Virus record (IMG/VR): IMGVR_UViG_3300009163_000200
Location: 1 to 22,626 of that record
Length of the DNA: 22,626 nucleotides
Strand: one strand, 5' to 3'
From: a virus
Shown: positions 1 to 14,998 of the stretch, one piece after another
Layout of the letters: each line of letters opens with the position of its first letter
Position numbering within the stretch: the stretch's first letter is position 1
Program-made: the position numbers and the translations under genes
The notes under the pieces: model-generated
Told to the model about the DNA's origin: nothing
The model's database searches: none
The model's input: the letters and a program-made list of their open reading frames with translations, nothing else

Positions 1-3000
1 CCCTCTTAACCTGGAAGACGACCCAATCTTGCGCCGCTGGTGTGCCTGCGATGGTGATGGCTGATGTTGCCGAGGTCACATACAGCGTGTTCGTCGTTCC
101 GCCGGTATCGGCGATTTGCTGGGCGGTTCCGACTGCAGCATCGCCCGCGTCCTGATCGGATATCGCGACCGCTTCTAGTGCCCACACGACACCGAAATTC
201 GTCGCCGTTGCCGCATGGCTCCACGTAAACGTTGCCGTTACCGTGCCGAGGTTCCAGCTCTTTGGCATCCTCACCGCAAACTGCGCGAACTCCTGCGTCG
301 TGGTGTCGAAGTCCAGCGTAGACAGCATAATTTTATTGGTGGTCGTCTCAGCCGTTCCGGCAGCTGCACCGTTGGTGGTGCGAGCCGTCATGGCTGCGGC
401 GGGGACGTAGATGGTCTCCGTGCCGACTTTCTTGACCAACGTCCCTTCAACGGCCAGCTCTCCCGCAGCCGAGCGCGAAAGCGTCGTGTCGGTGGCGTGG
501 CCGAGCTCGACCGACCCCACGCCGAGCGCGGTCGATGTCGATGCGGTGATGCCAGACACAGGTAAGCTTGTGCCGTTGGTCAGCGTGATCGAAGACGGTG
601 TGCCGCCCGCCCCGTTGAAGGTCACGAATGCGCCGGCCGATCCGACTGCGATTGCCAGGGCGGTTCCGACACCCGTCCCGAGCCCGGTGATGCCGCTGAT
701 TGGAAGGCCGGTGCCATTCGTCAACGTGATCGACGATGGCGTACCGACAGCGCCGTTGAACGTGACAAACGCGCCGGCAGACCCGACGTTGACTGCGAGA
801 GCCGTGGCAACGCCCGTGCCGAGGCCGGAAACACCCGTGCTGATCGGCAATCCTGTCGTGTTGGTCAGCGTGCCGCTGGAGGGCGTGCCAAGCGCGCCGC
901 CGGGGACGACATAGTCCGTTCCTGCGGTTGCAGCAGACGCGACGCCCGAGGCCGCTTTAACAAGGCCCGTCAGCGTGGCCCGCTTCAATAGCTTGCCGGT
1001 GGTTGAGCTGAACAGCGCCAACTCGCTGTCCACCGAAGCCGCCGGGCCGACGACATCACCCGAGCCCGCGCCGTCCGTTCCCTTGTCGCCGGTCGCGAAG
1101 AACATCACCGCAACGATCGCAGCGTTTGCTATGGTGCCGGCGCCGCCAACGTAGGTCACAGGAAACGTATCGTAGGCGCCAACGTCCGTCAGTGCGCCGG
1201 TGATCCGGTACTCGAGAAAATTTGTTCCCGGTGCCGACACGTCAACAATGCGGACAATGCCCTTGTTGCTGGCCGTGGTTCCGTCGTCCCATGTCGCAAT
1301 ATAGGCAGACTGGCTCGCGCTCTGCTGGTTGCTTTCCGATATGTTGAGTTGCGTCGCGCTGGCTGGCGTCGCGTTATTGACGAGCAACTTGCCGGTGCCG
1401 GGATCGCCGCTAGTTGCTGTGTTCCACTGGTAGTCTAGGCCCGTGTTCGGACCCGTGGCGCCGGTGGCACCCGTACTGCCGGTTGATCCTGTCGAACCCG
1501 TCGCGCCGGCGTCGCCCTTGTCGCCCTTGATTGCAGGCGACAGCTTCAGGCCGTCAAGATTGGTGAAGCTTCCGGTATGCCGAACATACGTGACGGGGAT
1601 CGTGCCCCACGTTCCGTTGTCGGTGATCGATCCCGACACGTCGAGCACCAGCACCTTGGTCGGGTCGCCGCCCTTCTGGAATCGCAGTCGGGTCTTGATG
1701 GTGGAGGTTGGATCGTCCCAAGACTGGATCTCAGATGCTAGGCCGTTGGCGCTGGCATCGGTCTCCGAGATGTAAACCGACGTGATCGAGGCGAACGTGC
1801 CGGAGTTGAACGCCACCTTGCCGGTGCCGGGATCAGCCGCCGACGTGCTCGAATTGTAGGTGAATGACAGCCCCGCGTCTGCGCCATCAACTCCGGCCGT
1901 ACCCGTGGAACCTGTTGCTCCGGTCGCACCCTGCGGACCCTGCAACGCCGTCAGTTCGATCAGCGTAACGCGGGCGTATTTTTCGACGCCCGCGCTGAAC
2001 CCGGTCGCGACGCCCAGACCGGTGGTCGCTGCCGTGGTCTGCACCTGGCCTTTCAGCTCGAGCACTTTGGACGAGGCCAGCGTGAAGGTTCCGACCAGCG
2101 TTATATTTTGGTTGTCTTGTCCCACCGACGAAACAACGCAGGAATTGCCCGCAAGCAACACCGTCGTCCCGTCCGTGCTTTCAAAAAACAACTGTGTTTC
2201 GTTGGTGCTGGAGAACGTGGCTTCGCAGACGGCAAGATAGGTTGCGGCCCCAAGCGTGATTTGGTTGCTGGCAAGGCTGGCGCTGGTCAGCGTATTGCTC
2301 ACCGACGTGTTGAGCGTGCGGACAAATTTAGATCCGCTCGTTGCTGTGCCGCCAGCTGTGCCGTTAGCTTTCTGGTCCTCAAAGACTGCGACCTTGATTG
2401 CGGACGAGCTGGGTGCAGACATGCCAGACTGAACAACCCAGGCTGACGCCTTGAACGCATAAAACGCGCTGTCCGAAACACTGTAGGCTAGCCATCCGCA
2501 ATTCGTTGTCGGGCTATACCTTATCCAGCTGCCCTGACCGTCCGCCTCGGCAATGTCCTGCGTCGTGAACCCGAGCGCGAGCCAAGTTCCCGTAGGCGTG
2601 CCGTCAACGATGTAGCGAGCACCCGGCGTAGGCGATGCCGGCGCCGCCGTCTCGCGTGAGGTGATCGTTATCAGGCGCGTTCCGATGGGCCTGGTTTCCA
2701 GGTCAAGTGACCAGTTCGCACCGTCCGAGACGACCCATACGCTGTGACCGCGACCTGTCAGCGCGTAGCCGCTTGAGGTCGCGTTGCCCGGCAATTTAAT
2801 GGTTTGCCCGCCCTGCGTGGCGATCTTGACCTGATTTGCGGTTCCGTTGTGGCGGACGCCGATGCGGGCACCGTCGCCCGCCGTCACAGCGCTCGGGATA
2901 GTCACCGTGAATGCGCCGCCGGTCGGATCGGCCTGAATCAGCTTGCCGTAGCTGGTTGTTGTAAGCACGGTATCGGTGGCGAGCGAGGAAACCGGGGTTT

Positions 3001-3340
3001 CCCATTCCGTCATGCCGCCGCCGAGCGAGGCCGAAGAGATCGCGCCCGTGATGCCGTCGTGCGTGGCAATCGTCGCGTCAGAGGCGTCGGTGACGACGAT
3101 TTTATAGCTTGCGGTTCCGGTCCAGATCAAAACCTTGGTCGACCCGTCAGACGTGGGATACCCGCCGCTATCGCAGGTCACGGTTGAGCCGAGCGAGACC
3201 GTCAACGCGCTGTCGGCGTAGACCGTCTTTGGCGTGCTGGTGCCGGAATTGTAGAACTTGAGCTTGGCCCCCGACACGGGATCGCCGTTCGCATCCGTGA
3301 CGCGGAAGCCGGGATCGAAGACTGTGGTTGAATCCAGCAT
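1..3340 (-). CDS. Modular tail fibre/appendage protein, collagen-like and DUF2793 segments (3' end outside window)
   Basis: An open frame runs from an ATG at 3340 to the window edge without a stop (1,113 codons visible). The start follows a GAGGAGAAAGG ribosome-binding region. Visible order: an N-terminal beta-rich anchor-like domain (about residues 1-100, starting MLDSTTVFDPGFRV); a DUF2793-like module (about 218-305) with the typical ASPTPGARYIVDG and GSWIRYSP stretches; a collagen-like Gly-X-Y run (about 468-490); a beta-rich module; a second collagen-like run (about 606-630); a second copy of that module; then GTPSS/LTNGTGLP repeats of about 47 residues (LTN codons at 868, 724 and 583). 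Such mixtures are typical of phage tail fibres that bind the host surface. It follows the ejection module in transcription order. The receptor-binding tip is probably outside the window. Fibre identity is strong; the receptor is unknown. Confidence 0.85.
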   Translation of the reverse strand, partial: MLDSTTVFDPGFRVTDANGDPVSGAKLKFYNSGTSTPKTVYADSALTVSLGSTVTCDSGGYPTSDGSTKVLIWTGTASYKIVVTDASDATIATHDGITGAISSASLGGGMTEWETPVSSLATDTVLTTTSYGKLIQADPTGGAFTVTIPSAVTAGDGARIGVRHNGTANQVKIATQGGQTIKLPGNATSSGYALTGRGHSVWVVSDGANWSLDLETRPIGTRLITITSRETAAPASPTPGARYIVDGTPTGTWLALGFTTQDIAEADGQGSWIRYSPTTNCGWLAYSVSDSAFYAFKASAWVVQSGMSAPSSSAIKVAVFEDQKANGTAGGTATSGSKFVRTLNTSVSNTLTSASLASNQITLGAATYLAVCEATFSSTNETQLFFESTDGTTVLLAGNSCVVSSVGQDNQNITLVGTFTLASSKVLELKGQVQTTAATTGLGVATGFSAGVEKYARVTLIELTALQGPQGATGATGSTGTAGVDGADAGLSFTYNSSTSAADPGTGKVAFNSGTFASITSVYISETDASANGLASEIQSWDDPTSTIKTRLRFQKGGDPTKVLVLDVSGSITDNGTWGTIPVTYVRHTGSFTNLDGLKLSPAIKGDKGDAGATGSTGSTGSTGATGATGPNTGLDYQWNTATSGDPGTGKLLVNNATPASATQLNISESNQQSASQSAYIATWDDGTTASNKGIVRIVDVSAPGTNFLEYRITGALTDVGAYDTFPVTYVGGAGTIANAAIVAVMFFATGDKGTDGAGSGDVVGPAASVDSELALFSSTTGKLLKRATLTGLVKAASGVASAATAGTDYVVPGGALGTPSSGTLTNTTGLPISTGVSGLGTGVATALAVNVGSAGAFVTFNGAVGTPSSITLTNGTGLPISGITGLGTGVGTALAIAVGSAGAFVTFNGAGGTPSSITLTNGTSLPVSGITASTSTALGVGSVELGHATDTTLSRSAAGELAVEGTLVKKVGTETIYVPAAAMTARTTNGAAAGTAETTTNKIMLSTLDFDTTTQEFAQFAVRMPKSWNLGTVTATFTWSHAATATNFGVVWALEAVAISDQDAGDAAVGTAQQIADTGGTTNTLYVTSATSAITIAGTPAAQDWVVFQVKR
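557..868 (-). repeat. In-gene tandem repeats of the tail fibre (141-144 bp period)
   Basis: Three successive units each carry a LTNxTxLPxS core followed by a GLGTGVxTALAxxVGSAGAFVTFNG stretch, truncated in the last unit. The LTN codons begin at 868, 724 and 583, giving periods of 144 and 141 bp. The period is a multiple of three, so the array encodes a 47-48 residue protein repeat of the kind that builds fibre shafts. It is not a CRISPR array: the units abut without spacers and the frame stays open throughout. Confidence 0.75.
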
Positions 3341-3401
3341 AAACTTGCCTTTCTCCTCGTGGAGATTAGGGTCGAGAGAGGACACAGAGGGAGAACGGAG
3401 C

Positions 3402-3614
3402 ATGCGCTACGCACTGGCGGCAGGGATCATGATGGCCTGCCTTGGGACGGCGAACGCGGGATCGGTGAAGCCGGCGAAGGTGCCGATCCAGTCTCAGATT
3501 ACAAAGGCGGCCTTCTGCGGGATTCCGCCCATCGCGCCGATCGGCTGCAGGATCGGCCCGTGTCAGTGCGACGCGTCGGGCCGCGTCTGCCAGTGGACGT
3601 TCATTTGCGGCTAG
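3402..3614 (+). CDS. Small exported Cys-rich protein, antisense to the late genes
   Basis: This 70 aa plus-strand protein starts at an ATG preceded by an AG-rich ribosome-binding region (GGAG at 3397-3400). Residues 1-19 form a classic signal peptide: Arg2, a hydrophobic core, then ANA before Gly20, a good signal peptidase I site. The mature 51 residues hold six cysteines (39, 49, 54, 56, 63, 69), which suggests disulfides in the periplasm or outside the cell. An in-frame ATG at 3258 would give 118 aa but would destroy the signal peptide. The gene lies in the only sizeable minus-strand gap of this part of the late region, and its TAG overlaps the TAG of the convergent gene within a CTAG palindrome (3611-3614). 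I see no convincing promoter. It may be a moron-type gene expressed separately; its function is unknown. Confidence 0.7.
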   Translation: MRYALAAGIMMACLGTANAGSVKPAKVPIQSQITKAAFCGIPPIAPIGCRIGPCQCDASGRVCQWTFICG

Positions 3615-4249
3615 TCCTTGTCCGCATAGGATTTCAGCGCCGCCGGAAGCGTCTGCACCGGTGACATCTGGCGCCGCTGCTCTGGCGTCAGACCGCGGCG
3701 ATATTCGACGTTGAACGCGCGCTGCTCGCGCGGGTCCTTGAGGTAATCCGGCGCATTGAACCGGCGGCGTCCCTCGTAGTTGTCGAGGGCGTGCTGCGTC
3801 TCGTGGAGACCCGTAGAGAGACGGTTGTCGGGCGAGAGCAGAGGGTCGATCCACACCCGATTGCCTTCCGTCACCATCCCGTCGACATCCTCACGCCGGG
3901 CAAGATCGGGATCGACGGTCACGCGCGAGCGCGCCATGAAATCGGGGTAGCGCTGCTCAAGCTCTGGGTGAGTGTAGGTCTGGCCGTAAGGGCGCGTGAT
4001 CGCCCGCCCCTGAACCGGCATCAGGGCGTTGCGCTGCTCCGCATAGCCGCTATCGTCGATCTCGAACGACCAGCCTGTCGGGTCCTGAAACCATCCCTCT
4101 GACCACGGGTCTTGGCCGTTCTTCTGCAGCGCCTTGGCACGCTCCAACGCGGCGAGGTCGGCGCCCTGTGCTTTCTCGCCTCCGAACAACGCAAGCTGTT
4201 GGTCGTAAGGCGTCGGCGCGCGTCGTTGCGCCAGAGCGTTGCGCGACAT
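3611..4249 (-). CDS. Putative zincin-type metallopeptidase of the ejection module
   Basis: This 212 aa protein carries HETQH at residues 149-153 (GLHETQHALDNYEG), the HExxH zinc-protease signature. Glu175 in DPREQRAFNVE, 22 residues after the second His, is a plausible third zinc ligand; the same spacing style occurs in phage polyvalent-protein peptidase domains (HEIQH followed by GEVEARN). The N-terminal half lacks a recognisable domain but contains RNAL motifs at residues 3-6 and 73-76. The start ATG overlaps the previous stop by one base (TGATG), so translation is probably coupled. It is the last gene of the module before the tail fibre. It might act on the cell envelope or process virion proteins. 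The zincin call rests on the motif and its context; the substrate is unknown. Confidence 0.75.
   Translation of the reverse strand: MSRNALAQRRAPTPYDQQLALFGGEKAQGADLAALERAKALQKNGQDPWSEGWFQDPTGWSFEIDDSGYAEQRNALMPVQGRAITRPYGQTYTHPELEQRYPDFMARSRVTVDPDLARREDVDGMVTEGNRVWIDPLLSPDNRLSTGLHETQHALDNYEGRRRFNAPDYLKDPREQRAFNVEYRRGLTPEQRRQMSPVQTLPAALKSYADKD
4016..4037. repeat. 22-base exact repeat, copy 1 (other copy at 9125-9146)
   Basis: The same 22 bases, beginning CGGCATCAGGGCG, occur here inside the metallopeptidase gene and at 9125-9146 at the start of the 534 aa gene. In both places the minus strand encodes the peptide QRNALMP in the same frame. Identical codon choice over the whole motif suggests recent copying, or strong constraint. 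Confidence 0.8.
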
Positions 4250-4773
4250 CAGCGACGCTGCGGTGGGTTCATATACAGATTGTCGTATCCGTGCTCGTAT
4301 TGGTATCGATCCTGCCCGAAACGGTCACGACCGTCAGATCCGATGTCCCAACTGTCCGGGTCTCGCATCAGAGGACGCGGCTTTCCGCTCGGTCCCATCA
4401 TCGGGTTCTGACTGGTCGGAGGATCGTTGAATGCGCGGTCATATGGCGTGCGCACGCCATACTGGCGAGCCATCATTCGAATGTCAGCGATACCGGCATC
4501 GGTCGCGCCTTGCGGCGACTGCGCCAACTCTCGAAGATATTGCTCGATTTCGAACGTATTGTTCGAGCGCAGAGCACGCTGCCCTCTGGCATCACCGCCG
4601 AACCCGACCCGTTGCATGCGCGGCGCCAGCGCATTGCGATTGTCCATCAAGTCTTGCGGCTGATACTGGTCGGGCGGACCCATCTCGTCCGTCGCGCCCT
4701 CCGGCGGGATCTCGGACGGGTCATCGTCCTCGTACATCTTGGGGACAAGCGCGTTGCGAAAGGGCATTCTCAT
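4249..4773 (-). CDS. Hypothetical acidic/Pro-rich module protein with two RNAL motifs
   Basis: This 174 aa protein belongs to no family I recognise. It begins MRMPFRNALVPKM, has a second motif at residues 46-49 (DNRNALAPRM), an acidic Pro-rich linker between them, a short helical stretch (about 73-105) and a disordered-looking, Tyr/Arg/Pro-rich C-terminus. The start ATG overlaps the upstream stop by four bases (ATGA), and a GGGGGAAGA sequence lies just before it. Its position between the 926 aa protein and the metallopeptidase, and the shared motif, suggest an internal virion or assembly-accessory role. It could equally be a linker or chaperone for its neighbours. Confidence 0.75.
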   Translation of the reverse strand: MRMPFRNALVPKMYEDDDPSEIPPEGATDEMGPPDQYQPQDLMDNRNALAPRMQRVGFGGDARGQRALRSNNTFEIEQYLRELAQSPQGATDAGIADIRMMARQYGVRTPYDRAFNDPPTSQNPMMGPSGKPRPLMRDPDSWDIGSDGRDRFGQDRYQYEHGYDNLYMNPPQRR

Positions 4774-7550
4774 GTCTTCCCCCTGTTATCTTCGTTCAGC
4801 ATGCGCTTGACCTCTTTAGCGGCGTCCTCGCTTATCCCGGACTGAGCCCCGAGAATGCGCACGAGGGCATTGATGTGGGCTCGGCGATCCGCTGGCGTCC
4901 GCGTCACCGGCACACGGGTGAGCCAGCGCTGGAAGGCCGGGCTGGCCATGGTACGAGCGGCGCCAGCCTGTCCAACGGCGTAGACGATGGCCGAAGGCGC
5001 ATGAAGGTAGGTGATCAGCCCCATGAGCGCATTGTTACCGCTGGCGACACGCCGAGCGACATCGGCCACCGACTGATCAGGCCGAGCCAGCGGCACGTAT
5101 CTTTCAAGATAGCCGCCGACGCGCGCCAACTGATCCAAGCGCGCGAAGACCGGCCGCATCTCGCCTTGGCTCATCATCGCGCGCACTTCCGGCGGCATGC
5201 CACGGTAGGACGCGAGGAAGCCTTCGAGCCCGCCCTGTGCCATCTCTGTCAGAATGGCGCCGGAAGCCCTGACAACGTCTCCCTTTTCACGTGCAACACG
5301 GAAATATGCGTCGAGGAGGTTGATGTTGCCGCGATCCCCGCCGCGCGCGGCGTCGGTCAGCAGCTTGACGGCCTGCTCTGGTGTGGTCTTTTCACCAAAC
5401 ACCTTCGACAGCGGCGCGCGAATATCGGTCATGAAGTCGCGATAGCTGTCCCGCAACACGGTGCGCTGTGCGGCTGCGAGCTCGCCACCCGGAACGCGGG
5501 CGACGGCTTGATCGACGTCACGCCCCAATGCATCGTACAACCGAGAGAGGAACGCCGCGCGCGCGCGCTGTGATGCACCCTCGCCTTGCGTCAGGCCACC
5601 GATCGGCTTCTGTTTGGCATCAGACAGGGCTTGGCCTATCGCTGTGCGGATCTGGTCGAGACCTTCGATGCCGAGCTGTGTTGCTCCGCGCGGTCGCATA
5701 TCAGAGATTGCGCGAATGCGTTCGGCTACACCAGGGCCGGCCAGACTATCGACGATCCGTAGAATATCTGCGCTAACGCGACCCGTTTCATCAAAGACGG
5801 CGCCGGATCTATATCCTGGCAGCAAACCTTGCTTGCGATAATCCGTTGCGACCGAATCCAAGAGACGCGCAGTCTCAGTCATTCCGGCATCGCTTGGGCG
5901 GCCAAGCGGGTTCATCTGCATCGGCGGCGTATTCGCGCGCGCTGCTGAATATCCAGCATCGAACTCGGTGTTATAGCTCTCACGGCTGTTGCCGCCGACG
6001 CGCTGCGGGATGGCCTGCGCCTGTCGCCTTTCCAGATCCGCACGATAGGTCTGATCAGCGGCATACTGTGCCCGATCGGTCTCGGAGCGAGCGCGATTGC
6101 GGGCTTGCGCTTCAAAGGCAATCCGGCGCGTCGGGTCGTTGACGTTGGCCAAATGCTCGGCATCGGCGACACGCTGGGCACGCTGGCGAGCCTCATCCCG
6201 CGCATTCGACATGCGAAGTTGATAGTTATCCTGTGCCTCGCTCGAAACCCGTTCAGCCTCGGCCTGCTGTGCGCGGGTGAGGTTTGCATGCCGGTAGGCA
6301 TTAGCCTGCTGTTGGGCGTTCTCCGCATCGGCCAAGGCTCGCTCGGCTTTGCCGAACGGGGCATACTCCTGTTCAAGCTGTGCGCGCGTGCGGGCGAGTG
6401 CTTGGCGCTGCGGTAGCGTGGCGTTGTAGGTCTGTTCGGCCGCTGCCTGCTGGGCTGCTTCCTGCGGTGACGTGAATTGCTTGCCGACAGGGCGAGGGCG
6501 CGGCACTTCAGGAAGGTTTTTTTCTGCCTCACTGAGCTGCTGCATACGCGCCTGAAGCGATTGATGCTTCTCGGCGTTGCCCGTCAAAAACTGTTCGGCC
6601 GCGGCACGGCTTGCGCCGGCGTCCTGCACAGCGCGTTCCATCTGCGGCGGCAAGATCACGTCTTCGAGCATCACCTGCCGAGGAACCGGCGTCGGCAGGC
6701 GTGGCGGGCTCTGCATCGCCGCATCGACGTCGGCCTCGGTAATCGCACGCCGCTGCGGGTTCCAAGGTTCCGGCTGAACGCGCGGCACCGGCGGGGCATT
6801 GCGTGGCGCGTTCGGTCCTGGGCCGACACCTGAAATGTCTTGCAGATCGAACCTGGTCATATTGTCGATTTCATCAGCCGTGCGCGAGCGGTCGACGATG
6901 GACCGGCGCAAATCGCCCTTCACCTCGTTTCCGATCTCGTTGACCGAACGCGCGGCCCCGGTGGGCGCTAGGGTGTCCTGCACCCCGCGCTCTACGCCTT
7001 GAATGGACAACTGAGCCCGGTTACGCAGCGGACCACCGAACAGTCCGCCCATCACCGTCTCGGCGCCCGGCATGTTGTCGACCAGAGCCGGCGCAAAAGC
7101 CGGAACACCAGCGTCCTCGAACTCCGACGCGCGGGAGAGCGCATTCTGCCTGCGAGCGGATACGGCCGGCGTGTAGGGCACCGGCTTAGGCATGAAATTG
7201 GTGCCGGTGATGCCCATGCCGGCAATCCCGAGCGCGTCGCCGGGGCTGATGGTGCCCGTCTCGGCCGATTTCTTGAATGCGCTGAACGGCTGATAGATAA
7301 AGCCGGGAACAGCCAAGCTCAGGCTGTTCGTGTTCGGGTCGCGCGCAATCGGCAGGACCGTCCCACGCTCAAGCCCTTGGTCGTCGAGCACTGTCCCGTC
7401 GTCGAGCTTGTCGCCGGGTCCATAGACCTTCTTTTGCCCGCCGATCACGCCACGCCGCACCAGCTCGTCCACGACCGGCTTATGCTCGGCCGGCACCGCG
7501 TTGCGGCGGTGCAATTCGGCGTACACGTCTATGGTGGATTGGTCGGCCAT
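4770..7550 (-). CDS. Large internal virion/DNA-ejection-like protein (926 aa)
   Basis: This is the largest complete gene of the window. Its N-terminus (IDVYAELHRRNAVPAEHKPVVDELVRRGVI) is helical, followed by a Gly/Pro region, a long Ala/Gln/Arg/Glu-rich segment with coiled-coil character (about residues 310-560), and a helical C-terminal part with a weakly hydrophobic stretch (ALMGLITYLHAPSAIVYAVG). No catalytic motif was found. Size, helix-rich composition and position after the tail genes match the largest ejection proteins of P22- and T7-type phages (gp16 analogues), which leave the virion with the DNA; there is no clear sequence match to them. The start ATG overlaps the preceding stop by one base. 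RNAV (16-19) and QNAL (135-138) variants of the module motif are present. Confidence 0.75.
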   Translation of the reverse strand: MADQSTIDVYAELHRRNAVPAEHKPVVDELVRRGVIGGQKKVYGPGDKLDDGTVLDDQGLERGTVLPIARDPNTNSLSLAVPGFIYQPFSAFKKSAETGTISPGDALGIAGMGITGTNFMPKPVPYTPAVSARRQNALSRASEFEDAGVPAFAPALVDNMPGAETVMGGLFGGPLRNRAQLSIQGVERGVQDTLAPTGAARSVNEIGNEVKGDLRRSIVDRSRTADEIDNMTRFDLQDISGVGPGPNAPRNAPPVPRVQPEPWNPQRRAITEADVDAAMQSPPRLPTPVPRQVMLEDVILPPQMERAVQDAGASRAAAEQFLTGNAEKHQSLQARMQQLSEAEKNLPEVPRPRPVGKQFTSPQEAAQQAAAEQTYNATLPQRQALARTRAQLEQEYAPFGKAERALADAENAQQQANAYRHANLTRAQQAEAERVSSEAQDNYQLRMSNARDEARQRAQRVADAEHLANVNDPTRRIAFEAQARNRARSETDRAQYAADQTYRADLERRQAQAIPQRVGGNSRESYNTEFDAGYSAARANTPPMQMNPLGRPSDAGMTETARLLDSVATDYRKQGLLPGYRSGAVFDETGRVSADILRIVDSLAGPGVAERIRAISDMRPRGATQLGIEGLDQIRTAIGQALSDAKQKPIGGLTQGEGASQRARAAFLSRLYDALGRDVDQAVARVPGGELAAAQRTVLRDSYRDFMTDIRAPLSKVFGEKTTPEQAVKLLTDAARGGDRGNINLLDAYFRVAREKGDVVRASGAILTEMAQGGLEGFLASYRGMPPEVRAMMSQGEMRPVFARLDQLARVGGYLERYVPLARPDQSVADVARRVASGNNALMGLITYLHAPSAIVYAVGQAGAARTMASPAFQRWLTRVPVTRTPADRRAHINALVRILGAQSGISEDAAKEVKRMLNEDNRGKT

Positions 7551-9154
7551 CAGCGCCCGCCTTGCAGACGACGCAACAATTCATCGGTGGGGACTTTCGA
7601 AAGGTCGGGAGCTGGCGGTTTGCCTGCATCGGACCCAGCCGGACCACCAACAGACGTTCCGTCCGGGTTTTTGACGCCCATCGTTGCCATGGCCCTCGAG
7701 AACGCCTTGTCGTAGTCCTCGCCGCCGCGCACGGCCGACAAAAGAGCCCCGTAGAACTCTTTCATCCGCGCAGATTTTGCCTTGATGCGCCACTCGGTAT
7801 CCCACGGCTGCGGTCCGTAAGAATCAATAAAATTTTTCATCTCGGCGACGGCGACTTGCTTGCCAGACAGCGCGTAAGCAATGCCTAAGGCTGCCTGCTT
7901 CAAGTCGGCAAAAGATTGACCTGTCTCGCCGACGTTGGCCTGCCCAGCGATAGAACGTGTGAAGTAATCCCCGACCCCACCCGGGGTGACGGCTCCAGCA
8001 ATCCCAGGCTCAAGCAATTTTTTCGTTGCCTGATCGATCTTCTGCATATTCATCAAAACTTGGGCTTGGGTCTCCTTGTCGCCCTTGTAGTTTCGGTCCG
8101 TCTTGGGCAATTCCCGGCCATCTGGACCATAGTAATAGCCAGCACGCGGAGTACCGAGCGCCGCGCTCCACAGTTGCTGATCCTGGCGGAGACGCATCAA
8201 CCGCTGTTGTTGTTCTGGCGTTGCCTTGTCATAGGCACGCTGGCCTTGCGCTTCGCGCGTAGCCGGAACATCGACCCTTCTATTTCGGCCGGCATCAGTA
8301 ACGATCCCAGGAACTTCTGGAGAGGTGACGCCCGTAGGACCGAACATGCGCGCGGCGGCTTGATCGGTCTGTGACGGCTCTGGACGCCATGGGGCCGGTG
8401 CAGCCTGCGCCATCCGAACGCCCGCAGGCCCCTGCGGGCGGCCTTCGTCGAGACGCATTGAACGGTCAATGTCGTCGCGCGGGCCGCCGAGGTTCATTCT
8501 CTGTGGCGTCTTGCCCTGCTGCGGTGCAATCTGCCACGTCTCTCCAGTCGGCTCTGCGTAAGGTGATGCCGGACGCTGGCCACTGGTGACGATATTGCCT
8601 TCATCGTCGAGGCCAGCACCCTGCAACGGATCGGCGACAGGTGCCGCTTGAGGTGCCGCAGGCTGCGGCGCCGTCAGAGCAGTGGCGCGGCTGTTGTAAA
8701 AGTTCGTATGCGCTTTGTTGAGGCCGATCTGCGATTGCTTATAATCGTCGTCTAGCTTGTTCTTCGCCTTTCCAGCCTCGGCCATCAGGAGTCGAGGTCC
8801 AATCGCCGGATCACGATACATGGGAGGAAGGCTGTTGAAGTCGGGGTGATGCGAAAGCGCGACTTGGTAAATCTGTGCCCGCTTCGCAGGGTCTTGCTCT
8901 GCATCAGCGGCCGTGGCGATATTGCCGACATCCTCTATCGTCCGCTTGCGCTTGGTGTACTCATGCTCGTCGATCTGCATCCCGAGCTTGCGCTGGTTCA
9001 TGCGCTCCGACGCCAGCGCGCGGTCCCCCTCGAACTGGGATTGCATGCCCTGTCGATAGGTCTGCAGGCCCTGCATCAGAGGGTTGGTGAAGTTGCCGAC
9101 GTCGGCGGCCGGGCCGAGTTCCATCGGCATCAGGGCGTTGCGCTGCATGGCCAT
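7550..9154 (-). CDS. Putative internal virion (ejection) protein, 534 aa
   Basis: The protein begins MAMQRNALMPMELG, with the module motif at residues 5-8. Residues 15-160 look helical and Gln/Arg-rich, 165-300 are Pro/Gln-rich and probably flexible, and the C-terminal 150 residues form a conserved-looking helical domain around YALSGKQVAVAEMKNF and KAKSARMKEFYGALL. No enzyme motif is visible. It lies three bases downstream of the 247 aa ejection-like gene and overlaps the next gene by one base (TGATG). An internal ATG at 9148 would remove only two residues. The position is that of the middle-sized ejection protein in P22-like gene orders (gp20-like); the assignment rests on position and composition, not on homology. 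Confidence 0.75.
   Translation of the reverse strand: MAMQRNALMPMELGPAADVGNFTNPLMQGLQTYRQGMQSQFEGDRALASERMNQRKLGMQIDEHEYTKRKRTIEDVGNIATAADAEQDPAKRAQIYQVALSHHPDFNSLPPMYRDPAIGPRLLMAEAGKAKNKLDDDYKQSQIGLNKAHTNFYNSRATALTAPQPAAPQAAPVADPLQGAGLDDEGNIVTSGQRPASPYAEPTGETWQIAPQQGKTPQRMNLGGPRDDIDRSMRLDEGRPQGPAGVRMAQAAPAPWRPEPSQTDQAAARMFGPTGVTSPEVPGIVTDAGRNRRVDVPATREAQGQRAYDKATPEQQQRLMRLRQDQQLWSAALGTPRAGYYYGPDGRELPKTDRNYKGDKETQAQVLMNMQKIDQATKKLLEPGIAGAVTPGGVGDYFTRSIAGQANVGETGQSFADLKQAALGIAYALSGKQVAVAEMKNFIDSYGPQPWDTEWRIKAKSARMKEFYGALLSAVRGGEDYDKAFSRAMATMGVKNPDGTSVGGPAGSDAGKPPAPDLSKVPTDELLRRLQGGR
9125..9146. repeat. 22-base exact repeat, copy 2 (other copy at 4016-4037)
   Basis: This copy encodes residues 4-10 of the 534 aa internal-virion-like protein. 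It is about 5.1 kb from the copy in the metallopeptidase gene and in the same orientation and frame. The bases flanking the 22 differ between the copies. Confidence 0.8.
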
Positions 9155-9157
9155 GGA

Positions 9158-9901
9158 TCAACCCCACGTCGTCGTTGTGTTCCATCCGCTCTGACCGGAT
9201 GGGCGGAACAGGGCATTACGCATGTTGCCGAACGTAGTCTGACCCCCAGCCCCCGGCGCAAACCCGGACATGGCCGCGCTACCAACGAAGCCAAGCCCCT
9301 TCAGTATGTTGTTCATCCCGCCCTGTTGCGCCTGATAAATGTTCTGTTGGCGCTGCTGTTCAATGCCGGCGAGCTGGTTGTTCTGGCCGATGTAGCTCCC
9401 GCCGATGGCTTCGCCTTGGCCGATGGCGTTCTGTGCCCGCTGTTGGCCGAATTGCGCGCCTTGCTGGCCGAGGCCCATCAGCCGGTTGCGGTAGTCAGCC
9501 ACTTGGCTCCCGTAGATGTCGCTTCCAACCCGTCCAACCGCAGCACCAGCCGTGCCGCTGTTCCCCATACCCTGGCCGTTGTAGCGGCGGTACGTATCGC
9601 GGACAGCTCGCGCGGTGGCGTCGTCCTGACCCTGCCGGAACGGGTCAGCATTGAAGTTGCTCAGCGCGTTCTGGTAGCCCTGCGCCCCGTTGGCGCCGAT
9701 GCTGTCGGCATACTGGCTGTAGGCCTGTTTTCCCGGCTGCTCATAGCCGGACAGAATGCTATCGGACTGGCCGTAGCCCTTCGTAGCATTGTCTCGATAG
9801 GAGTTATACCCGCTGTTGGTGTAGGCACTGGCAGCCTCGGCGCCCGCGTTGGCCGCTTTCTTGCCGGATGAACCGCCAAACAGATCGCCGAAAAAACCCA
9901 T
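9158..9901 (-). CDS. Gly/Gln-rich putative DNA-ejection protein (gp7-like position)
   Basis: This 247 aa protein has a short amphipathic N-terminus (MGFFGDLFGG), a Gly/Ala/Ser/Gln-rich low-complexity body with many YxxY-type residues, a Gln-rich helical segment (about 145-195) and a mildly hydrophobic Gly/Ala segment (about 200-215). The module motif RNAL sits near the C-terminus (228-231), whereas most neighbours have it near the N-terminus. Small Gly-rich proteins with this style of N-terminus directly after the tail genes are typical of the smallest ejection protein of P22-like phages. It begins two bases after the stop of the 45 aa gene (TGAGATG) and ends three bases before the next start. 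The family call is by resemblance only. Confidence 0.75.
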   Translation of the reverse strand: MGFFGDLFGGSSGKKAANAGAEAASAYTNSGYNSYRDNATKGYGQSDSILSGYEQPGKQAYSQYADSIGANGAQGYQNALSNFNADPFRQGQDDATARAVRDTYRRYNGQGMGNSGTAGAAVGRVGSDIYGSQVADYRNRLMGLGQQGAQFGQQRAQNAIGQGEAIGGSYIGQNNQLAGIEQQRQQNIYQAQQGGMNNILKGLGFVGSAAMSGFAPGAGGQTTFGNMRNALFRPSGQSGWNTTTTWG

Positions 9902-9902
9902 C

Positions 9903-10040
9903 TCAGGCCCCCATGTAATCGCGCACGGCGGAAAAGAACCGCACCCATGCTGTGTCGGTCAGCGGCGTATCAACGCGAGGTATTGACTGTCCTGCCTTGG
10001 TCGCGATCCGCGTTAAAACACGGTACAGTTCGGGGTTCAT
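9903..10040 (-). CDS. Small conserved-looking phage protein, 45 aa
   Basis: A 45 aa protein (starting MNPELYRVLTRIATKAGQ) opens at an ATG that overlaps the stop of the gp10-like tail gene by four bases (ATGA). It ends just before the start of the 247 aa ejection-like gene. A longer reading from 10115 would run deep inside the tail gene and is not favoured. The protein is a single likely helix followed by a loop and a WVRFFSAVRDYMG tail. The tight coupling on both sides is the main evidence that it is real. Its function is unknown; a small tail or ejection accessory is possible. Confidence 0.7.
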   Translation of the reverse strand: MNPELYRVLTRIATKAGQSIPRVDTPLTDTAWVRFFSAVRDYMGA

Positions 10041-11437
10041 GCCCTGAGCTTCTGTGCATCCATGTGCGCACTCAGAAACCCACGCGCGACCGCAGCCGAC
10101 GACCGCACGCGCCATGTCACGCCCTGAACGCCGTAGACGCCCCAGCGGCGCAGAACGATGCGTTTGACCCGCTCGCCACGGTGCCCCATTGAGATCCAGC
10201 GTTCAGTCCCGAACGTGGCGCCGCCATCCCGTGATCCCTGCACCATGATTTGCGGCTCTGTCGTGCTGTCGTCGCCGGGAACGATTCCTTGGCCGGTAAT
10301 CACGTCAAGGTGCAGCGCATTGACCTGCAGACGCTCGGGTGCGGCGTGATTGGGCGGTGTGATGCTCTCGCAGATCAGCGGCTCGCCGGCTTCGTCGGCG
10401 TAGTCGCGATGCATCTGATAAAGGATGCCGGTGGAAGCATCGCCCGCGATCGTCTTGCCGGCGAACTGGACAACGTAGCTGCAGCGCCAGCGGCTATATC
10501 CATAGCTTTCACGGTTGTGCCAAAGTCCGGTTGCGATGTCGTAGACCCACGTTTCATTGGTGCCAGACAGGCAATAGAACGTGTGGCCGTCCTGCGCCCA
10601 TGAAGTTGCCGTCAGTTCCGATTTGGTCGTCTCGTCAGCCACGAACCTGTCAACGGCGTGGTTGCTGATGACCTTGCCGCTGTAGCCTTCCATGAGACGC
10701 ACAGTCCCATCCTGCGCGACCCATGCCAGAGTACGGTCAACGGTGGCAACAGAAGCGGCAGACAGGCACCCGATGCGGGCCGTTTGCACCCGACTGAACG
10801 GGAATGTCCCCCCGCTGTTCTGCCACCACTCCGTTGATTCCGTGCCGAAGAACACGACTTCTGATTCACGGACTGCGACGCGCATTGTGGCGTCTGGGCT
10901 GCTTTCGGCTGAAGCAAAGTCGAGCGGATCAAATGCGGTAAAATCGTCCGCGTCCGAGATGTGGAAGACCGATCCATAGCCTGGCAGAATGCCATAGCCA
11001 TCCAGCACAGCAAGCGACGATGACGGCGGAAGATCGGTGTCGGCGTTTGGTGTCAGCGTGGCATCAACTACAACCCAAAACAGGCCGTCCGAGCTAATGC
11101 CTATCTGTGTCGGGTTGGCCCGGTTGCGGCCCATAGTCACCAGCCCATCGGTCGGAATACCGCCGATCAGAGTTGATGCTCCGCTTGCATCGACCCGAAA
11201 CAGCAGCCGCCCGGCGACGACATACAGCCAGTTGTCGGTTGCCAGCATGGCGCGGACACCGCCGCCCCCGGTCAGCGTCGAAAAACTCGCCAGCCCAGGC
11301 ACCGGATAGAGCACCGTTAATGCCTTCCCCTCTTGACCGGACTGCTCAATCATGAGGTTCGTCAGACGCGCAGAGCCAGCGGTCGAGAACCGTCCTGGAT
11401 TGGATTGGGTGCCGAGCGTGATCGGGAGAATGGCCAT
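10037..11437 (-). CDS. P22 gp10-like packaged-DNA stabilisation/tail hub protein
   Basis: This 466 aa protein matches in length and style the P22 gp10 family (packaged DNA stabilisation protein), which plugs the portal after packaging and forms the tail hub. Characteristic features are the N-terminal repertoire of beta strands (TNLMIEQSGQEGKALTVLYPVPGL), repeated beta-propeller-like units such as DNWLYVVAGRLLFRV and DGLFWVVVD, the phrase FFGTESTEWWQNSGGTFPFSR, and the C-terminal WISMGHRGERVKRIVLRRWG. It starts at an ATG overlapping the previous stop by one base (TGATG) and ends overlapping the 45 aa gene. With the 115 aa gene upstream it forms the connector-tail segment of the operon. Confidence 0.88.
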   Translation of the reverse strand: MAILPITLGTQSNPGRFSTAGSARLTNLMIEQSGQEGKALTVLYPVPGLASFSTLTGGGGVRAMLATDNWLYVVAGRLLFRVDASGASTLIGGIPTDGLVTMGRNRANPTQIGISSDGLFWVVVDATLTPNADTDLPPSSSLAVLDGYGILPGYGSVFHISDADDFTAFDPLDFASAESSPDATMRVAVRESEVVFFGTESTEWWQNSGGTFPFSRVQTARIGCLSAASVATVDRTLAWVAQDGTVRLMEGYSGKVISNHAVDRFVADETTKSELTATSWAQDGHTFYCLSGTNETWVYDIATGLWHNRESYGYSRWRCSYVVQFAGKTIAGDASTGILYQMHRDYADEAGEPLICESITPPNHAAPERLQVNALHLDVITGQGIVPGDDSTTEPQIMVQGSRDGGATFGTERWISMGHRGERVKRIVLRRWGVYGVQGVTWRVRSSAAVARGFLSAHMDAQKLRA

Positions 11438-12123: not shown

Positions 12124-12588
12124 TCACGCGGCGACGAGCGCCGTGGTCGAGAAGTCGGGATCGACAAAATAGCGGACGCTGAAGTACAGCGTACCGGCCG
12201 CACCAGTTGCGGCCACTGCGTTCACATAGGCACGCAGCTGCGTGCGAGTCGTAAACTTGTAAAGGTGGCTTCCCTGTGCGACAGCAGCCGACAGCGTACC
12301 AGCTTGGCTCACGGTCGACGCAGAGAAGATCCGCGTATTTGACCCGCTGTCGCCTACGTTCCAGGTGATCGTCGGCGAAACGTTGGTATCTAGGTCGGTG
12401 CTCGACAATGTCGAGCCCAATAGTACAGCGCCGGCCGGAATATACAAAAGTCCGACACTGTCGTTGGTATTGTCGATCATCGCCGTTGTAATGGCGATGA
12501 TTGCGACGTCCTCAATCACCTGCCGCGCCCATCCAGCACCAATGGAGGTGCCTGATAGAGCGGACTTTGACGTTTCGTATGCAGCCAT
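12124..12588 (-). CDS. Candidate capsid decoration protein, 154 aa
   Basis: This 154 aa protein directly follows the major capsid gene. It is rich in Ala, Ser, Thr and Val and almost wholly beta-stranded, with stretches such as VGLLYIPAGAVLLGSTLSS, SPTITWNVGDS and GTLYFSVRYFVDPDFS. Small beta proteins with this position and composition are usually head decoration or stabilisation proteins. A GAGGGA ribosome-binding sequence precedes the ATG, and the gene ends in a double stop (TGATGA). A GC-rich hairpin lies immediately downstream. There is no family motif I can name, so decoration is inferred. Confidence 0.75.
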   Translation of the reverse strand: MAAYETSKSALSGTSIGAGWARQVIEDVAIIAITTAMIDNTNDSVGLLYIPAGAVLLGSTLSSTDLDTNVSPTITWNVGDSGSNTRIFSASTVSQAGTLSAAVAQGSHLYKFTTRTQLRAYVNAVAATGAAGTLYFSVRYFVDPDFSTTALVAA

Positions 12589-12606
12589 AGTTAGTTGTCC
12601 CTCTTA

Positions 12607-13722
12607 TCACGCAGCAGAGAAGTAGCAGGTGACGATGCCGAGATCCTTGTTAGTCCCGGAGCCGTTGTTCCAACGCAGCTTGTCGAGGCCCATTGCGAAC
12701 TCGATGCCGACGCCGTCAACGAAGCCGTAGTCGTCCTCATTCTTCTTGGTCGGTATGGCGGCCTGCTTGTTGACGTAGCCGAGCGCCTGCGTTCCGCACA
12801 GGAAGTTGACACCCACGTCAATGGAAGAAGCGCCGACGCCCGCAAGATGCGTGTTGGTGTTGCGGCCGGTGCCCGTGCGGTTCGTGTAGAACTCGGGGAT
12901 CTCGCGGAAGATGATGCCGTCGTAGATCAGGTCGCCGTCCTGAAAGATCGGGTTGCTGTCCATGCCGCCACCCTCACGAGCGCGGGCGTCACGGTTAGCG
13001 CTGACCATCGTCGTATCCGCTTTTAGGTCGCGGAAGCAGAGCGGATGGCAGAACATGACATAAAATTCGCGGCCCTGGGCACCCGTCTTAAACGGACGAA
13101 TATGAGGGTCGGCCTGCCGCGCGATGAACTTCGCGAGCGAGCCATTGGCAGCCGTCAGCTTGTCGTTGGTGCTGTCGACGTTGCCGAGCGCGGTCAGATG
13201 CGTCGCCGAATAGTTGGCGATCGCATTGCCGAACAACACGCGGTCGGAGTTGTTCACGACCCACGTGTTACGGGTGCCGGCGCTGGCGTCGGCGAAGTTC
13301 GTTCCGTCGCTCATCTTGTGGAAGGCGTCGATGACCAGGAACTTGATCAGCTCCGACGACCACTCCTTGAGGCGCGGGCGAGCCTGCGCCATGAAATCGA
13401 CGGCCGAGCGCTTCTTCTGGTTCTTGGTCGCGGCGACGGCGTGCCGGCGGAACTTCCAAGTGAGATCCTGATAGTACTGGTCAAGCATCTCTTCCTGACC
13501 AGACAGGAGGGTGTCGCCTTCGACGCCACCGCCCTTAAGACGAGCCAGCAGCGGGATGCGGATCGTGACGCCGTCCGTCTGCAGGTCGTTGACGACGTGG
13601 ATGATGTCCATTTCCGACGTGCCCATATACGGTTTAAAACCGCTGTCGCGCACGTATTCGTTGATGAAGTCTTTCCGCCACTTGGTCAGATCCAAGCCGG
13701 AAAGCGTCGCGGTGTTTGCCAT
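12607..13722 (-). CDS. Major capsid protein, N4-gp56 family
   Basis: This 371 aa protein matches the N4-gp56-type major capsid family in length and sequence pattern: N-terminal LTKWRKDFINEYVRDSGF, then the beta segment VTIRIPLLARLKGGGVEGD, the LLSGQEEMLDQYYQDL stretch, and the middle motif FYVMFCHPLCFRDLKAD. Residues 240-300 (DGIIFREIPEFYT) and 310-345 (NFLCGTQALGYVNKQAA) follow the family order. It builds the icosahedral shell. It lies after the scaffold gene by 52 bases and before the candidate decoration gene. The ribosome-binding sequence before the ATG is weak, which is surprising for a highly expressed capsid gene. Confidence 0.92.
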   Translation of the reverse strand: MANTATLSGLDLTKWRKDFINEYVRDSGFKPYMGTSEMDIIHVVNDLQTDGVTIRIPLLARLKGGGVEGDTLLSGQEEMLDQYYQDLTWKFRRHAVAATKNQKKRSAVDFMAQARPRLKEWSSELIKFLVIDAFHKMSDGTNFADASAGTRNTWVVNNSDRVLFGNAIANYSATHLTALGNVDSTNDKLTAANGSLAKFIARQADPHIRPFKTGAQGREFYVMFCHPLCFRDLKADTTMVSANRDARAREGGGMDSNPIFQDGDLIYDGIIFREIPEFYTNRTGTGRNTNTHLAGVGASSIDVGVNFLCGTQALGYVNKQAAIPTKKNEDDYGFVDGVGIEFAMGLDKLRWNNGSGTNKDLGIVTCYFSAA

Positions 13723-13774
13723 GGTGATTGTTCTCGATCGTGACGGTTTTCAGGATCGAGGCGGACGCGGTACG

Positions 13775-14605
13775 CTAGGCTCGGCGGTAAGCGCCGGCCA
13801 TGATCGCCTCATCGGAGAGATGTGCGGTCTGCGATCCGCCGGCCGACGTCTGATCGGCAAGCGTTCCGGGGAACCGCGTCGGCTGCACAGTGGTGCCGTC
13901 CAGCTTGATCTTTCCGGCCTTGAGATCGGCGAGGATTTTCGCGGTTGCCCGCTCCTCGACCTGCTTCTCGTAGGCGTCAGTATCAGGCCCGATCTTGGCC
14001 AAAGACTTCTGGCGCTTGCCCCACTCCACCAGAGCGCCCCACGGATCGGGGAACCGGTTGAAGTAGGACGGATCGCCAGCATTTCGAGCCATCTCCAGAG
14101 CCTCGTTGACGATCGCGTCACCGTGGGCACGGCGGGCATTCGACTCCGAGATGTGGAGCAACCGATCTTCCATCCTGGCTTGCACGCGGTTCACGTGGAA
14201 CTGCGTAAAGCCCTCGGGATCGGTGTAGGGATCGGGCGGCTGGATGGGTGCCGGCTGTACGGCCGGTGGACGCGACTGAGACAAGAGGGCCTGCACCTGT
14301 TTTTCATAGACAGATGCGCGCGCCTCGGCCTCGGCGCGCAAGCGAGCCTCTTCCTGACGCTTGGTGCGCTCGGATTGCAGCTCTTTGAGTGGCACATGAC
14401 GCGTTGCGACCTCGGGCTCGGGCTGCACTTCCGGCTGCGGCGTTGGCGCCTTGGCCTCGGGTGCTGCTTCCTGCTTCGCGGCGAACCGTCCGGCCTCGTC
14501 GCGCACCGGCGTCTGCCCATCCGTTGCCGGTTGAGCGTCGGTCGGTGCCGTATCCGAGGCGTAAACGTCGTCGAGTTGCAGGTCTTCGGTCACGGTGTCT
14601 GCCAT
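13775..14605 (-). CDS. Scaffolding protein
   Basis: This 276 aa protein is acidic, Pro/Ala/Gln-rich and without predicted globular parts at its N-terminus (EVQPEPEVATRHVPLKEL), followed by a charged coiled-coil segment (about residues 75-110: ERTKRQEEARLRAEAEARA) and a helical C-terminal half. Such composition directly upstream of a major capsid gene is typical of internal scaffolds that guide procapsid assembly. An in-frame TTG at 14614 would add three residues but has no suitably spaced ribosome-binding site, so the ATG at 14605 is preferred; its own site is also weak. Confidence 0.85.
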   Translation of the reverse strand: MADTVTEDLQLDDVYASDTAPTDAQPATDGQTPVRDEAGRFAAKQEAAPEAKAPTPQPEVQPEPEVATRHVPLKELQSERTKRQEEARLRAEAEARASVYEKQVQALLSQSRPPAVQPAPIQPPDPYTDPEGFTQFHVNRVQARMEDRLLHISESNARRAHGDAIVNEALEMARNAGDPSYFNRFPDPWGALVEWGKRQKSLAKIGPDTDAYEKQVEERATAKILADLKAGKIKLDGTTVQPTRFPGTLADQTSAGGSQTAHLSDEAIMAGAYRRA

Positions 14606-14737
14606 GTGGGTCAATCCGCTTTGACGTAGCTGGTCACGAAAGCATCAGATGCGGTCTGATGAGCCGGTGTCGTGAGAATGACGGTCTCACGGGCCGAAAC
14701 GCCGCTTAGGCCGGCGGGTCCACGCACGTCACGCTAC
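14606..14737 (-). other. Gap before the scaffold gene with two perfect hairpins and a possible 38 aa ORF
   Basis: Two perfect inverted repeats occur in 132 bases: CATCAGA/TCTGATG at 14643-14661 with a five-base loop, and CGTGAGA/TCTCACG at 14671-14691 with a seven-base loop. Such a pair suggests a structured leader or attenuator in the late transcript. A GTG-started minus-strand frame at 14727-14611 would give 38 aa (containing ARETVILTTPAHQTASDAF), but it has no good ribosome-binding site. I favour an RNA structure over a gene, without excluding both. Confidence 0.45.
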
Positions 14738-14995
14738 TCACGCGGCTTTGTTACGAGCGAAGACAGACGACATCATTTCACCGTCGCCCGCTTCGCTGTC
14801 TGCTTCCTCCGGCGCGGTATCTTCGGCCGGCTCCAACATGGTTTCGAGCGCGGTATAGACCCGCTGCATGTCCCCACGGCGAATGTGGAACTCATCGAGC
14901 ACGTCCATCGCCTCGGTCACGCTCATTCTGGGCTCGGCCGGTTCCATCTCCATCTCCATCTTCGGCTCGGCTGGCATGGACTGCGTGTCGGCCAT
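14738..14995 (-). CDS. Small acidic head-region protein, 85 aa
   Basis: This 85 aa protein is strongly acidic and Met-rich (KMEMEMEPAEPRM), with one predicted helix (about residues 24-55, VTEAMDVLDEFHIRRGDMQRVYTALETML) and a disordered acidic C-terminus. It starts three bases after the portal stop and ends before a structured 132-base gap. It does not match a family I can name. Small acidic proteins between portal and scaffold may be scaffold partners or assembly chaperones; this is inference from position and charge. Confidence 0.7.
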   Translation of the reverse strand: MADTQSMPAEPKMEMEMEPAEPRMSVTEAMDVLDEFHIRRGDMQRVYTALETMLEPAEDTAPEEADSEAGDGEMMSSVFARNKAA

Positions 14996-14998
14996 GGA

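Follow-up and report, generated by a model that had tools for sequence, protein, structure and literature searches.

The window analysed here is a 22.6 kb virus record (22,626 nucleotides, taken whole) whose recognisable genes all lie on the minus strand. They encode a terminase, a P22-type portal (phrog_156), a scaffold-position protein, a major head protein and connector proteins, followed by the head closure gene Hc3, five module genes that run from position 9901 down to 3611, and a gene in the tailspike position. The Hc3 gene served as the anchor for locating syntenic modules in other genomes. The features of this part of the window are:

10037..11437, minus strand: Hc3 head closure protein, P22 gp10-like (phrog_578, E 3.9e-91)
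9158..9901, minus strand: 247 aa gp7-like ejection protein, assigned through homology to a protein of L060
7550..9154, minus strand: 534 aa gp20-like ejection protein, assigned by position and by alignment with L018-L020 and others
4770..7550, minus strand: 926 aa protein in the gp16-like position, a probable large ejection protein by synteny
4249..4773, minus strand: 174 aa orphan protein without a family match, carrying two candidate tags
3611..4249, minus strand: 212 aa polyvalent-type protein with LPD23 and zincin-like (HETQH) regions, carrying two candidate tags
2-3403: tailspike-position gene with relatives, which the module precedes

Lying between the Hc3 (gp10) gene and the tailspike, the five genes occupy the place of a P22-like ejection module, and the presence of gp7-like and gp20-like proteins agrees with this assignment, indirectly, through the phrog matches of relatives; on their own the module proteins of the window had no phrog match. 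The 247 aa protein is 31% identical to the L060 protein, which matches phrog_598 (DNA ejection), and a homologue is encoded in MW202785; a genome scan with this family gave no confirmed match. A gp20-position relative in L032 matches phrog_2534, annotated as ‘released from the phage upon host infection’. The 926 aa protein shares 26% identity with a 749 aa protein of L018, and a family search with it gave no match. In the 212 aa protein, residues 22-68 match LPD23 (Pfam E 7.7e-9; 35.6 bits against a cut-off of 27), an HETQH sequence is present, and a match to M78 is weak and under the cut-off, so that an LPD/zincin/ART-type domain is found in a phage head-tail neighbourhood, as in polyvalent proteins. 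The AlphaFold model of this protein has a mean pLDDT of 38.6 and was uninformative. Foldseek and PDB sequence searches returned no usable match. The same module genes recur on an IMG/VR contig (L002), together with an Hc3 identical to that of the window; the INPHARED set held no phage record with a similar module at the DNA level.

The original prediction was that the five module proteins share an RNAL(x)P peptide, and every RNAL, RNAV and QNAL site it listed is present in the translations. The QNAL of the 247 aa protein and the two bare NAL of the 926 aa protein had escaped it, and are included in the following list (all minus strand):

9662..9673, minus strand: QNAL, residues 77-80 of the 247 aa protein
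9209..9220, minus strand: RNAL(FRP), residues 228-231 of the 247 aa protein, absent from the L003 homologue
9131..9142, minus strand: RNAL(MP), residues 5-8 of the 534 aa protein
7494..7505, minus strand: RNAV, residues 16-19 of the 926 aa protein, a doubtful member
7137..7148, minus strand: QNAL, residues 135-138 of the 926 aa protein
5025..5033, minus strand: NAL, residues 840-842 of the 926 aa protein, which may be ordinary
4863..4871, minus strand: NAL, residues 894-896 of the 926 aa protein, which may be ordinary
4747..4758, minus strand: RNAL(VP), residues 6-9 of the 174 aa protein
4627..4638, minus strand: RNAL(APR), residues 46-49 of the 174 aa protein
4232..4243, minus strand: RNAL, residues 3-6 of the 212 aa protein, aligned with NLLMP in orthologues
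4022..4033, minus strand: RNAL(MP), residues 73-76 of the 212 aa protein, where it separates LPD23 from the zincin region

RNAL occurs six times in the window, against about 0.07 expected from composition shuffles, and more than two copies appeared in none of 20,000 shuffles. When any 4-mer was allowed in the shuffled proteins as a look-elsewhere control, 2 of 1,000 shuffles had one 4-mer shared by four proteins, and none reached a count of six. The shorter NAL is found 10 times in the window's module, where 0.72 are expected. [RQK]NAL is absent from all other proteins of the window, among which Hc3 (VNALHL) and the portal (LNALSM) each have a single bare NAL. RNALxP itself proved too narrow a definition; the conserved core is NAL, and the preceding arginine and the following xP are partial preferences. 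The RNAV of the 926 aa protein (residue 16) does not contain this core and was not counted as a tag. The codons of NAL vary, with 35 different 9-mers among the 144 NAL of the window and its relatives, which points to selection on the peptide rather than on the DNA and rules out a DNA-level element.

To place the window among related phages, modules were gathered by synteny, from Hc3 to the tailspike, and tripeptides were ranked against the expectation from within-protein composition. Gene starts and module limits were set by simple rules, with some limits on the tailspike side set by hand; errors of this kind should dilute the signal more than create it. Kinship among the genomes was treated by draws of one protein per family, and not by a tree. 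In the discovery set (29 modules, 150 proteins) NAL ranked first among all tripeptides, with 144 occurrences against 28.5 expected, and it kept this rank in 20 of 20 one-per-family draws (about 40 against 8); other proteins of the same loci held 40 against 33.5. Since the NAL core was picked after viewing this set, two later sets matter, on which the motif was tested once it had been fixed. Eleven isolates gave 34 NAL against 13.0 (controls, 11 against 10.8), and 20 prophage modules, located solely through the Hc3 family, gave 58 against 21.5, again rank 1 (controls, 15 against 14.7); with one protein per family, the two validation sets gave 25.6 against 10.1 and 15.9 against 7.0. Enrichment over a shuffled null in homologous modules, one of two checks attached to the original prediction, is thus present.

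Taken together, the 60 modules contain 236 NAL where 62.9 are expected (219 against 61.5 once the window and L003 are removed), and each permutation of the letters N, A and L occurs 51-84 times; in the other proteins of the same loci there is no excess, with 66 NAL and 53-64 of each permutation. Every position of the core counts, as no other NxL, xAL or NAx tripeptide approaches the enrichment of NAL. Longer forms are sharper still: the modules hold 51 NAL[ML] and 21 NAL[ML]x?[PR], the controls one and none, respectively. When the most enriched tripeptide was taken genome by genome, it was NAL in 11 modules and NLL in 3, and the top tripeptides of the controls did not converge. NAL is not universal: 27 of the 60 modules are clearly tagged, and 21, P22 included, show no excess. 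Acetobacter phage phiAX1, a cultured phage, is one of the tagged ones, with 12 NAL against 1.45 expected. The modules of P22, VSN-002, Pam5, BA3 and phiGT1 are among those without NAL excess, so that NAL is not required for packaging generally. Two further tripeptides, TPE (41 against 7.5) and LMR (31 against 7.7), are also strongly enriched in the module proteins of the discovery set, LMR partly through NALMR and TPE perhaps as helix starts. A degenerate DNA scan of IMG/VR for RNALMPxR returned six matches, none in a recognisable ejection module.

Core ejection proteins hold more than half of the NALs, some of which may be structural; accessory proteins alone contain 70 against 15.0 expected, an enrichment as high as that of the core families. 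Of 144 sites, 31 lie no more than 30 residues from a chain end, against 23.9 expected, and the sites are N-terminal, C-terminal and internal, a distribution that departs from the N-terminal position of CTS signals of the T4/P1 type. The excess peaks (5.3x) in low-helix contexts, and in the AlphaFold model of the 534 aa protein (pLDDT 57.1) the tag falls in a predicted low-confidence coil (residues 1-17) ahead of a long helix (20-85). In enzymes of the modules the tag sits outside the catalytic fold: a VanY peptidase (L031) carries four NAL and a tail lysozyme (L032) three NAL in a C-terminal tail outside the domain, and a second tail lysozyme (L028), whose domain is 52% identical to that of L032, carries its tag on an N-terminal extension, so that one enzyme family is tagged at opposite ends. 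A Phage_lysozyme protein (L115) contains ENALMPGG, VNALLPG and a C-terminal VNALMPD, a small protein of 109 aa (L060) starts with MSDVNALMR and ends with PNALMRR, and the ART-PolyVal-type proteins of L003 and L059 have N-terminal tags; from its location, a NAL inside an ART-like repeat of the L059 protein (residue 190) is probably fold-derived. Two proteins of 115 aa (L049:17535-17882 and L055:11410-11757) end in PNHLAPRF and PNALTPRF, which may represent a further variant of the tag and recall the PLxRFG name of Pseudomonas phage proteins. The P22-like module of Vibrio phage VvAW1 (L068, 19-10941) encodes a 3,640 aa protein annotated as DarB-like antirestriction protein, and the neighbour of this protein in the gp20 position starts with MANALG and holds four NAL.

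The second check attached to the original prediction, retention of the motif in orthologues, gave a mixed outcome. In the relative L003, Hc3 is 96% and the tailspike 89% identical to those of the window, and the homologue of the 534 aa protein keeps the same N terminus, MAMQRNALMPMELGPAAD, with its tag, and diverges over the remainder; the C-terminal tag of the 247 aa protein is lost. The other module genes of L003 are replaced, and the slot before its tailspike is filled by an unrelated 432 aa protein that starts with MADRNALFLDP and has an ART-PolyVal match (E 0.0015) under Pfam's cut-off. In L018, L019 and L020 the homologue of the 247 aa protein is 47-54% identical, and the module proteins of these phages contain 19 NLL against 1.1 expected, many of them as NLLM, and 2 NAL against 2.4. 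The LPD23-zincin orthologues of L019 and L020 start with MADNLLMP where the window's protein starts with MSRNALAQ, so that here the tag is changed into NLLMP rather than kept. A scan for starts resembling M[x]DNLLMP gave six matches, three in the modules of this clade and three apparently by chance. Directly ahead of the tailspike, a contig of L018 (L123:7680-7718) carries a 12-codon frame, MPDNLLMPEGSG, that holds little beyond an NLLMP tag; it could be chance, the remnant of a cargo gene or a stand-alone tag peptide.

These differences amount to dialects. The flanks of the core agree between proteins of one genome, with 88 same pairs against 43 expected at position +1 (P 2e-4) and 66 against 46 at position -1 (P 0.003); residues after other AL pairs show no within-genome agreement (control ratio 0.96). 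L003 and the window have a common dialect with unrelated capsids and scaffolds, L003 having its Hc3, tailspike and member of the 247 aa family in common with the window. Conversely, the head type of L019 is that of the window (capsid 87%, portal 80% and scaffold 53% identical), but its dialect is NLL, as in L018 and L020, whose head is different. Across these five phages, the dialect tracks the block of Hc3, gp7-like, gp20-like and tail genes, and not the type of capsid, scaffold and portal. The head modules are swapped as blocks, as seen for positions 12124-18558 of the window against L003 and L019.

We consider that NAL is probably (at roughly 60%) a short linear sorting tag, by which internal proteins would be collected in the assembling head. 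Under this reading the gp7-, gp20- and gp16-like conduit proteins and the accessory cargo (zincins, ADP-ribosyltransferases and peptidoglycan hydrolases) would each carry at least one tag in a flexible tail or linker; during procapsid assembly the tags would dock in a common groove, bringing otherwise unrelated proteins into the head, from which they would be ejected together with the DNA. The groove may lie on a core ejection protein (gp7-like or gp20-like) or on the tail-side block, an assignment made because the dialect follows that block and not the capsid, scaffold or portal; the receptor may accordingly be an ejection protein, and not scaffold or coat. Gene-family co-occurrence yielded no family of the set significantly associated with tagged modules that might point to the receptor. 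The suggestion of a sorting or docking tag, made in the original prediction, is favoured by the enrichment in both related and independent modules and by the placement outside the domains of unrelated enzymes, at either end within a single enzyme family.

The alternative that a sorting tag is read by the scaffolding protein or the coat, as in the P22 recruitment model, differs from the preferred reading in the receptor only, and as to function the two readings are not mutually exclusive. Which protein reads the tag is a separate matter from whether it acts in assembly or after ejection. Entry of gp7, gp16 and gp20 into the P22 head depends on scaffold (PMC8402733), and the inner end of the P22 scaffold column has been proposed as a docking site (PMC12005531); the scaffold requirement would sit badly with an ejection protein as the sole receptor, although both may be reconciled if scaffold imports a complex in which an ejection protein has bound the tag. 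Against a scaffold or coat reader, the five phages combine one dialect with unrelated capsids and scaffolds (the window and L003) and one head type with two dialects (the window and L019), which leaves this a doubtful, if conceivable, alternative. We regard as unlikely that the motif acts after ejection, docking enzymes and conduit proteins together in the trans-envelope channel. The same partners would carry tags in that case, the gp20-like N termini ahead of the long helix could be channel contacts, and the dialect does track the ejection/tail block; however, from their domain class (described in PMC5512222), the cytoplasm and not the conduit is the expected place of action of ART-PolyVal and LPD23-zincin proteins, and N-terminal fragments of P22 gp7 and gp20 suffice for head entry (PMC8402733).

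Proteolytic processing at the motif, by the HETQH protein of the module or by a host protease, is improbable. A zincin-like protein is indeed encoded in the window's module, and host OpdA trims 20 residues from the N terminus of P22 gp7 (record note), but any HExxH occurs in only 4 of the 27 tagged modules, which speaks against the HETQH protein that had been proposed as the processing enzyme, and cleavage at tags that lie a few residues from termini, or in several tandem copies, would have little effect. Finally, it is hardly credible that there is no tag and that NAL arises as a by-product from proteins rich in helix and in Ala, Asn and Leu, and from the homology among those of the modules. 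Tripeptides that resemble helix starts, TPE for one, are likewise enriched, and in the gp7-like and gp20-like families certain NALs fall at conserved positions; for single sites this reading could hold. But shuffles and letter permutations exclude composition, the enrichment peaks where helix is low, and it survives one-per-family sampling and is as strong in accessory as in core proteins, which largely rules out such an artefact as the source of the overall enrichment.

The T4 CTS is N-terminal and is removed by the prohead protease. As cited in two articles, a short peptide of this kind on internal, ejected proteins suffices to send foreign proteins into the head (PMC9024508, PMC8402733). 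The likeness to NAL is that of a short peptide on proteins of the virion interior, a location that for the tagged proteins described here is predicted; the NAL tags differ in being also C-terminal or internal and often multiple, and no sequence relation is claimed. In P1, the first 30 residues of DarB, a large ejected effector, carry a reporter into heads, and the authors reported that the Dar proteins have no N-terminal consensus (PMC9024508), whereas a consensus across neighbouring module proteins is present here. In function, the T4 CTS and the P1 DarB signal appear to be the closest known systems, and membership in either is not claimed. P22 gp7, gp16 and gp20 have the same gene position after Hc3, but these three proteins are themselves without NAL. 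Polyvalent proteins are a domain class predicted to be packaged and injected, as set out in the available text of Iyer et al. 2017 (PMC5512222); LPD23, zincin-like and ART-PolyVal domains belonging to it are encoded by the window and its relatives, and that text describes the domains without giving a sorting peptide common to them. In Pseudomonas phages such as H66, the PLxRFG proteins are likewise named, in their records, after a short motif, and related large structural proteins have a region that matches the LPD23-zincin protein of L019; in this comparison NCBIfam gave no match for the window or the related proteins tested. Literature searches, with most subscription journals outside their scope, turned up no description of a motif of this kind in phages.

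Returning to the sorting-tag reading, we tentatively extend it to a peptide address code, in which each lineage would keep its own dialect (NAL, NALM, QNAL or NLLM) and a receptor in the ejection block, an enzyme that gains a tagged tail would become injected cargo, and lineages without NAL, such as P22, would use other tags. The need for scaffold is known in P22, and a recognition sequence for the packaging of ejection proteins in short-tailed phages is not. As the three-residue core can be read from sequence, sorting becomes testable by point mutation; the core also predicts which unannotated proteins are injected, and researchers could use it as a tag with which proteins are loaded into phage heads. 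Many short-tailed phages appear to mark the proteins carried in their heads, unrelated enzymes included, with an Asn-Ala-Leu core, and from its sequence pattern this common peptide suggests a sorting label for proteins that would be packed and then injected.
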